From Elusimicrobiota bacterium (GTDB lineage: Bacteria; CG03; SLGR01; PWQF01): a stretch of DNA of 35,753 bases. The stretch lies in the NCBI GenBank assembly GCA_003557485.1, contig PWOI01000029.1:1-35753 (forward strand), written 5' to 3'. The position numbers and the translations under genes are program-made. Positions 32,259 through 34,965 of this stretch are shown piece after piece. Positions within the stretch are counted from its first letter, which is position 1, and every line of letters begins with the position of its first letter. The notes below the pieces were generated by a model, which worked only from the letters and a program-made list of their open reading frames with translations, searched no databases and was not told where the DNA came from.

Positions 32259-33215
32259 ATGAAAAGAAGAGATTTTTTAAAAACGTCGCTTGCAGCAGCT
32301 GTCTCTCTGGGAGGCGGTAATATTTTTAAGTTTTTGCGCCAAATCAAAGCCGGTCCTGATTCAGAAAATAAAAATATGCCTTTAAGGCAACTTGGAAAGA
32401 CAGGGCACAAAGTAAGTATCTTTAGTCTTGGGGGAGAATCCGCTGTAGAGAACAGAAGAAACAGGAAAAAAGCTGTAGACTTGATAAACAGGGCTATAGA
32501 CGGTGGTGTAAACTATATTGATACGGCGCCTTCATACGGCGCCGGAGGCAGTGAAGAAAATATAGGACAGGTTATGAAATCGCGGAGAGGGGAAGTTTTT
32601 CTTGCTACGAAAACCCATATGAGAACTTATGATGGAACAATGCGTCTTCTTGAACAGAGTTTAAACCGCTTAAATACCGACTTTCTTGATCTTTACCAGC
32701 TTCATAATGTGCGTACGGATGAAGACCTTGAAAGAATATTTTCTCCGGGAGGCGCGCTGGAGGCACTTGTAAAATTAAAGGATGAGGGAGTAATAAAGAA
32801 TACAGGAATTACCGGTCACAGAAGTCCTGAAGTGCTTTTGAATGGAATAGAAAAGTATGATTTTGACTGTATACTGCTTACTTTAAACGCTGCTGATATA
32901 CATTACAAACCTTTCCAGAAAGATCTGCTGTTAAGAGCCTTAGAAAAAGATATGGGAATAATTGCAATGAAAATTACAGCAAGGGGTAGAATTTTTACAC
33001 CGGGAGGGTTAACCTCTATGGAAGAGGCGCTGGGCTACACTCTTTCATTTCCTGTAAGCACAGCAATAGTAGGTATTTCTAATAAAGAGCAGCTTGAAGA
33101 AAACCTCAAAATAGTAAGGAGTTTCAAGCCTCTTAGCGAGGCTGTTCTTAAAGAAATTGAAAGCAAGACAGAACCCTATAAGAGAGAAGGTAATTTTTTT
33201 AAATATTACTGGTGA
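32259..33215 (+). CDS. Aldo/keto reductase with twin-arginine signal
   Basis: The 318-residue protein starts with a Tat signal: MKRRDFLKTS followed by a hydrophobic stretch (11-26). The AKR catalytic tetrad is complete: D88 and Y93 in DTAPSYG, K118 in LATKTH, and H149 in QLHNV. It should reduce carbonyl compounds with NADPH, yet a Tat signal implies export folded, possibly with cofactor bound. Similar Tat-AKR proteins exist in anaerobes, often with a C-terminal ferredoxin domain that is missing here. It closes the long plus-strand gene run; a strong terminator follows 11 nt after its stop. It begins 4 nt after tamB without a clear ribosome binding site. Confidence 0.88.
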   Translation: MKRRDFLKTSLAAAVSLGGGNIFKFLRQIKAGPDSENKNMPLRQLGKTGHKVSIFSLGGESAVENRRNRKKAVDLINRAIDGGVNYIDTAPSYGAGGSEENIGQVMKSRRGEVFLATKTHMRTYDGTMRLLEQSLNRLNTDFLDLYQLHNVRTDEDLERIFSPGGALEALVKLKDEGVIKNTGITGHRSPEVLLNGIEKYDFDCILLTLNAADIHYKPFQKDLLLRALEKDMGIIAMKITARGRIFTPGGLTSMEEALGYTLSFPVSTAIVGISNKEQLEENLKIVRSFKPLSEAVLKEIESKTEPYKREGNFFKYYW

Positions 33216-33302: not shown

Positions 33303-33330
33303 TTGAAATAAAAATTTTATTAACTATAAT
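33303..33330 (+). promoter_or_regulatory. Strong putative promoter for the dksA-like gene
   Basis: TTGAAA (33303-33308), a 16-nt spacer and a consensus TATAAT (33325-33330). Transcription would begin around 33336-33339, essentially at the ATG at 33339, so the message would be leaderless or nearly so. Confidence 0.6.
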
Positions 33331-33353
33331 TACATACTATGAGAAAGAGGTAA

Positions 33354-33689
33354 ATACAAAAAATCAGAAAAGAGCTGGAAGCAGAAAGGCAGGATATTCT
33401 CGAGGCTGTAAAGCGCCTTAAAGAAAAGGAAGAGTCCTATCTTAATGACGAGGTTGGCGACGATCTTGATAAGGCGGCCGGTAACAGTCAGAGAGAACTG
33501 CTTTTTTACATATCAGACCACGATCACCAGAGACTGGACGCCATAGAGGATGCTATTCAGAAGATTGATGAAGACAGATTCGGTATATGCGAAACATGCG
33601 GAAAGAAAATATCGAATAACCGTTTGAATGCTATCCATTATGCCCGCCTCTGTATGAAGTGCAAGCCCGAGGCGGAAAACAACTCCTGA
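33354..33689 (+). CDS. DksA/TraR-family zinc-finger protein with disrupted or non-canonical start
   Basis: This frame encodes about 111 residues with the DksA C4 zinc finger C79-x2-C82-x17-C100-x2-C103, a long helical region, and an acidic tip DDLDKA (36-41) matching the DxxDxA motif that DksA inserts into the RNA polymerase secondary channel. It probably tunes transcription. The frame has no ATG, GTG or TTG near its 5' end: it opens right after an in-frame TAA at 33351, and the only early near-cognate codons are ATA (33354) and ATC (33363). Upstream in the same frame is ATG AGA AAG AGG then that TAA, and family proteins often begin with a basic MKKK-like string, so the stop may be a nonsense mutation or a sequence error. 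AGAGG lies just before the ATA. Coordinates start at the first sense codon after the stop. Confidence 0.75.
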   Translation: MQKIRKELEAERQDILEAVKRLKEKEESYLNDEVGDDLDKAAGNSQRELLFYISDHDHQRLDAIEDAIQKIDEDRFGICETCGKKISNNRLNAIHYARLCMKCKPEAENNS

Positions 33690-33693
33690 AAAA

Positions 33694-34965
33694 GTGGCCG
33701 CCGGCGCCGTAGATAAAATAAAAGAAGCAAAAAATTTTCTTTACAGGGATATCTGGCTTGTAAATGTTGCTGCCTATAGCAGGGTTAAAGCTCTATTAAT
33801 ATCAGGGCTTAAGGTCGTGCTAATCACAGCAGGTGACTTCATACACGATAAGTGTGTTCTCAGGGCGTCTTCTATTACCTATTACTTTTTTCTTGCCGTA
33901 GTTCCTTTCCTTGCTGTGGCAACTGCTGCAATCAAAGGTTTCGGTATGCAGGATGAGTACGGTGAGACCCTTCTTAACAGGGTTCTTATGAACCCTGAGC
34001 TTTCCCGCGAAATAATAAACTACATTGAAAATACCAACCTGGAAACACTGGGACTTTTCGGCGCAATTGCGCTGGTATATATAGCTATACTTCTTCTTTC
34101 TAATATAGAAAAGTCTTTTAACGATATGTGGGGGGTAAGGGAACAGCGTCCCTACCTTAGAAAAATAGTCTACTATCTCTTTGCAATAATGGTTGTCCCG
34201 GTTTTTATGACAATTATAGTATCTAACGTTACCGGTGTGATGACGGGAGATATGCTTTCAAGCGGAATATGGCACTATGTAGTAGCTTGGCTTGTTCTTA
34301 CTCTGCTCTATGTCGCCTTCACTAATGAAAAAGTTAAATTCCATGCGGCTCTTTCGGGCGGGCTTTTAGGGTCAATACTCTGGAATCTTGCCTGGATGGG
34401 ATTTATATTCTATGCGGTAAAAGTAAAACAGTTTGACAGGGTTTACGGCAGTTTTTCCCACATATTTCTTACGTTTCTCTGGGCTTATGTGAGCTGGATG
34501 ATAGTCCTCCTGGGATCGGAATTTGCCTTTGCAATTCAGAATTTTAAAACATACAGAAAAGAAGGTAAATCCGATAACATAAGCTTTTCTTATAAACAGA
34601 AACTTGCTCTTATAATTCTTCACCTTATATACTCAAACTTCAAGGACGGGAAATCACCCCTTTCATCGGATGATATAATAAATACCACCCGCGGCCCCAT
34701 AAAGATGATAAACGAACTTCTCTACGAACTTGTTAATATGGGGATTCTTGTTGAAAACAAGAAAGACGACAAGCGTTATTACTCTCCTGCCAAGAGTGAA
34801 GAGAAGGTTACGGTTCCATATATTATGGAGAAACTCCAGGGTTACGGCATATCAGATATCCCAATGAATAAGGATCCGCGCTTTAACAAGGTGGAGCAAA
34901 TACTTAAGAAAATAAGAAAAGAGTCCGAAGAGAATTACAGAAACATCAAAGTTTCTGAAATCTAA
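33694..34965 (+). CDS. YihY/BrkB-family membrane protein with C-terminal winged-helix-like domain
   Basis: The 423-residue protein has about six transmembrane segments between 40 and 285 and the family signature LRASSITYYFFLAVVPFLAV (56-75); it was once mislabelled RNase BN. The family is a poorly understood group of inner-membrane proteins. The last 125 residues are soluble and look like a winged-helix domain (IILHLIYSNF, then a recognition-like helix TTRGPIKMINELLYELVNMG). The start is GTG at 33694, only 4 nt after the dksA-like stop and without a Shine-Dalgarno sequence, so it is probably translated by coupling. If the upstream gene is truly broken, this gene's expression would fall too. 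Confidence 0.85.
   Translation: MAAGAVDKIKEAKNFLYRDIWLVNVAAYSRVKALLISGLKVVLITAGDFIHDKCVLRASSITYYFFLAVVPFLAVATAAIKGFGMQDEYGETLLNRVLMNPELSREIINYIENTNLETLGLFGAIALVYIAILLLSNIEKSFNDMWGVREQRPYLRKIVYYLFAIMVVPVFMTIIVSNVTGVMTGDMLSSGIWHYVVAWLVLTLLYVAFTNEKVKFHAALSGGLLGSILWNLAWMGFIFYAVKVKQFDRVYGSFSHIFLTFLWAYVSWMIVLLGSEFAFAIQNFKTYRKEGKSDNISFSYKQKLALIILHLIYSNFKDGKSPLSSDDIINTTRGPIKMINELLYELVNMGILVENKKDDKRYYSPAKSEEKVTVPYIMEKLQGYGISDIPMNKDPRFNKVEQILKKIRKESEENYRNIKVSEI

Follow-up and report, generated by a model that had tools for sequence, protein, structure and literature searches.

An early in-frame stop codon in a DksA-like gene of an uncultured Elusimicrobiota genome

We analyzed a contig of 35,753 bases (hereafter, the window) from the genome of an uncultured Elusimicrobiota bacterium. 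Near its end, a DksA-like gene interrupted by a stop at codon 5 was found immediately upstream of a gene encoding a BrkB/YihY-family membrane protein. The following features were assigned to the locus.

33303..33330, plus strand: sigma-70-type promoter belonging to the dksA-like gene, TTGAAA-16-TATAAT (agrees with the consensus at 11 of 12 positions; hexamers and spacer identical in a genome of the same genus)
33339..33353, plus strand: original start ATG, codons 2–4 (MRKR), and in-frame TAA at codon 5 (read from the sequence; genomes G001, G002, and G004 share the ATG and have Glu as codon 5)
33354..33689, plus strand: remaining DksA/TraR-family frame with a C4 zinc finger, including the stop TGA at 33687–33689 (Pfam PF01258; NCBIfam DksA models below cut-off; DksA chains in PDB; dN/dS about 0.05)
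33636..33638, plus strand: codon 100, CAT, encoding His instead of the Pro of all other homologues examined (homologue comparison)
33694..34965, plus strand: BrkB/YihY-family membrane protein gene starting with GTG, 4 nt past the stop of dksA (Pfam PF03631; same TGA-N4-GTG in the sister genome)

The sequence ATG AGA AAG AGG TAA was present at 33339–33353 in frame with the downstream DksA-like frame; the ATG occupies 33339–33341, the TAA (33351–33353) is codon 5, and the N-terminal product is MRKR. The original prediction had described these codons correctly, except that it started the feature at 33336, 3 bases before the actual ATG. Its statement that the conserved DksA frame begins right after the TAA agreed with the sequence: ATA CAA AAA ATC follow, and 111 sense codons (33354–33686) run in the same frame until the TGA. 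Neither ATG, GTG, nor TTG was found near the start past the stop, also as predicted; the first such codon in frame is TTG at 33624 (codon 96), and the next ATG is at 33654. Residues flanking the stop aligned with the orthologues without gaps, so the stop is no chance effect of the reading frame.

Pfam model zf-dskA_traR (PF01258) matched residues 76–108 of the post-stop product (E 7e-10) with 39.2 bits against a curated cut-off of 24.9, and the four cysteines of the zinc finger (CETC ... CMKC) were all present. The best NCBIfam matches were DksA models, all of them under their curated cut-offs (NF033459 and TIGR02420, 70.6 vs. 105 and 64.3 vs. 115.5 bits); the intact gene of the sister genome, reaching 75 bits, also stayed below the DksA equivalog cut-off. 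Among PDB chains, the best solved relatives of the 111-residue product were DksA proteins. Judged by these matches, the gene is of an ordinary DksA-like type, with a C4 zinc finger, of the RNA-polymerase-binding type, and originally of 116 codons. It resembles DksA and DksA-like RNA polymerase-binding proteins in length and in the zinc finger; the window copy differs from them in its NCBIfam scores, the stop at codon 5, and a His replacing an invariant Pro. The gene was found in a single copy in the genome (2.07 Mb, 212 contigs, 86.6% complete), and a search of this genome for a second intact dksA-like copy gave none. A more distant PF01258 match on contig C196 was under the curated cut-off and lay in a frame of 54 amino acids.

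The promoter begins with TTGAAA at 33303 and ends with TATAAT at 33330, 8 nt before the ATG. In the same-genus genome, a promoter with the same hexamers and spacer (L031:2881–2918) ends 7 nt before the ATG; in G004, which belongs to another family, a TATATT box is located 9 nt upstream of the ATG (L053, minus strand, about 2600–2557). The conserved −10 element of the window and the sister thus falls within 5–9 nt upstream of the start codon, the distance used here to recognize leaderless genes. Because the promoter ends 8 nt before the ATG and is kept in the sister, the dksA-like mRNA is probably leaderless, with its 5' end no more than 2 nt from the ATG. The placing of the transcript start at this ATG by a consensus promoter, proposed originally, was thereby borne out and implies such a leaderless mRNA. 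The arrangement appears to be kept in the sister species and probably also in another family.

Downstream, the GTG start of brkB has no SD-like sequence at the usual distance (33687–33696 junction). Since this GTG follows the dksA stop by 4 nt in both species and lacks a well-spaced SD-like sequence, brkB is probably translationally coupled to dksA. Upstream, the window alone has a gene between a TamB-family gene and the dksA-like gene (32259–33215); it encodes an aldo/keto reductase and shows a weak match to a Tat signal. The sister and two other families have dksA directly after the TamB-family gene. No RNA family matches were found within the window.

Orthologues were compared from one genome of the same genus (the sister) and two genomes from other families of the order. 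All three (G001, G002, and G004) are intact, share the ATG, and carry Glu (GAG or GAA) at codon 5. The sister gene, 94% identical, begins ATG AGA AAG AGA GAG ATA CAA AAA ATA (MRKREIQKI); a 55% identical orthologue from another family begins ATG AGA AAA AGA GAA ATA (MRKREI), and the N-terminus in the third family is MNKKEI. A stop at codon 5 was absent from all three. The basic opening string that had been ascribed to family proteins was thus recovered as MRKRE, MRKRE, and MNKKE, and comparison of the 5' ends of orthologues, proposed as a check in the original prediction, showed an ordinary ATG start at the same position, an outcome that this prediction had listed as its refutation. Because the orthologues share the ATG and continue with Glu at codon 5 and without a stop, the MRKR codons are best read as the conserved N-terminus of the protein, and the ATG at 33339 is, on this comparison, the ordinary start. 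A single G>T substitution leads from GAA to this TAA, and polarization places it on the window lineage. The third base of codon 4, which adjoins the stop, is also specific to the window and differs from all relatives.

Public copies were sought elsewhere: genome_contigs gave one relative, the sister itself, and viral_contigs gave none. Among public records, the nearest is an Elusimicrobia MAG from sediment sample CSSed10, the prefix of which was found in a study of soda-lake sediment metagenomes (PMC6146748).

Between the window and the sister, the dksA-like gene had a dN of about 0.03 and a dS of about 0.62, with dN/dS of about 0.05; its dN was the lowest of the three neighboring genes compared (0.15 for the TamB-family gene and 0.07 for BrkB). 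By these values, the gene body is under strong purifying selection through most of the divergence of the two lineages, so the stop would be either very recent or absent from the real genome. The window gene nevertheless lacks the Pro between RL and the third zinc-binding Cys: codon 100, just before this Cys, encodes His, while Pro was found in 29 of 29 other distinct homologues. This substitution (P100H), the second change specific to the window, suggests real decay or loss of constraint; decay is barely visible in the body of the gene, being limited to P100H and perhaps L73I. A dksA-like homologue was found in four of the eight genomes of the order, some of which are incomplete. In G003, the TamB-family gene is directly followed by a gene for a succinyl-CoA ligase beta-type protein, with no dksA-like gene between them. 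Because the homologue occurs in only half of these genomes and is cleanly absent from the syntenic site in G003, the regulator seems to be dispensable in this order of Elusimicrobiota.

We consider the best explanation to be that a dispensable DksA-like gene has recently acquired a nonsense mutation, with a probability of roughly 0.6. According to this explanation, a recent G>T substitution converted the conserved Glu codon 5 (ancestral GAA) to TAA in this genome. Ribosomes starting at the 5'-terminal AUG would make only MRKR and then stop; with no usable start before codon 96, the protein would be absent or present in traces, and the coupled brkB may be poorly translated too. We infer both that living members of the population carry the stop and how it affects expression; were the stop real, polarity on brkB could follow. 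Orthologues that are intact, share the start, and read a sense codon in place of the stop (G001, G002, and G004) support the option of a nonsense mutation or a sequence error, which had been among those offered originally. Early nonsense alleles and recent pseudogenes of non-essential bacterial genes are similar in having a single-base nonsense change in an otherwise intact conserved frame, and also in that the gene is absent from a sister family. The window gene differs from such pseudogenes in that its decay has barely begun, the dN/dS of the pair being still about 0.05. Taken alone, the finding is of little weight: it concerns one copy of a regulator gene, recently broken or mis-sequenced, that is missing altogether from some relatives. 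It does serve as a caution, because a gene start placed downstream of such a stop may look non-canonical where no such start exists.

A sequence error, the other half of that option, is a serious though clearly less probable explanation: the TAA would then stem from a mistake in the consensus or assembly of this metagenome-derived contig, or from a minority strain, and the population would carry an intact gene. A single wrong base in the consensus would give the same picture as a mutation. This explanation is consistent with a single-base difference in a gene under such strong purifying selection, with the draft state of the genome, with the intact orthologues, and with two neighboring window-specific bases, the third of codon 4 and that of the stop. 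The error rate, on the other hand, was low: in 82 gene alignments of fetched contigs with the sister (24,831 aligned residues), no frameshift and no internal nonsense codon other than that of dksA was seen, and the reverse comparison (88 genes) gave no internal stops. Every other stop, as sorted by eye on the alignments, preceded the real start, fell at the extreme end of the gene, or belonged to a shadow frame. The comparison covered part of both genomes, 449 kb vs. 420 kb. Signs of an assembly riddled with errors were not seen in these alignments; since no other internal nonsense codon or frameshift was seen in the 82 alignments, the assembly may be regarded as reasonably clean, and it may still hold one error in 75 kb. 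P100H, moreover, affects an otherwise invariant residue and would require a second error in the same small gene. All three polarized window-specific substitutions that change an amino acid are G:C to T:A transversions, a number too small to judge; this type fits damage-type errors as well as mutation, and the bulk ratio in dksA (5 vs. 3) is like that of the neighbors.

It is improbable that useful amounts of a protein without the first five residues are translated by reinitiation or by direct initiation at AUA 33354 or AUC 33363. The frame after the stop is indeed open and conserved, an SD-like AGAGG (33346–33350) precedes it, and initiation at codons like the AUU of infC is known. The window gene resembles infC in the Ile codons that follow the stop; they differ in not being conserved as a start and in being ill-spaced from the SD-like sequence, the gap from AGAGG being 3 nt for AUA and 12 nt for AUC against a usual 5–9 nt. 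Relatives use the ATG at the same position as codon 1, without a stop, and on this ground, as well as on the poor spacing from both codons, the AUA/AUC start put forward in the original prediction was rejected. Ile codons are also expected to be very weak initiators, since even CUG initiation is only 0.86% of that of AUG in E. coli (PMC11497404). P100H, suggesting that constraint on the protein has been lost, argues further against useful translation. A stop fixed in the population that keeps DksA-like expression low and regulated, with ribosomes on a leaderless mRNA terminating at codon 5 and at once reinitiating at AUA or AUC, seems more improbable again. Reading MRKR-stop as a conserved regulatory leader peptide that precedes dksA and is followed by reinitiation is hardly credible: the promoter does set the transcript start at this ATG, but in all three orthologues the same codons, the N-terminal MRKR or MNKK of the protein, pass into the DksA frame uninterrupted by a stop, codon 5 being Glu, which refutes a leader peptide for the relatives and tells against this third original proposal.

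As a side result, the conserved promoter of a probably leaderless mRNA is of more use than the interrupted gene itself. The search of the literature on leaderless mRNAs in Elusimicrobia gave nothing specific. We scanned promoter positions at 653 gene starts on fetched contigs of both species. Strong promoter matches 5–9 nt upstream of the ATG numbered 13 (one site being counted twice), compared with roughly 4 in each of the other 5-nt bins; no peak appeared when the −10 hexamer was scanned for by itself. A few other genes may therefore be leaderless in this genus too, the enrichment being modest. Strong −35/−10 promoters 5–10 nt upstream of an ATG were seen at L129 and L149, which are orthologous frames of 667 amino acids, at L121, L127, and L112, and at others.
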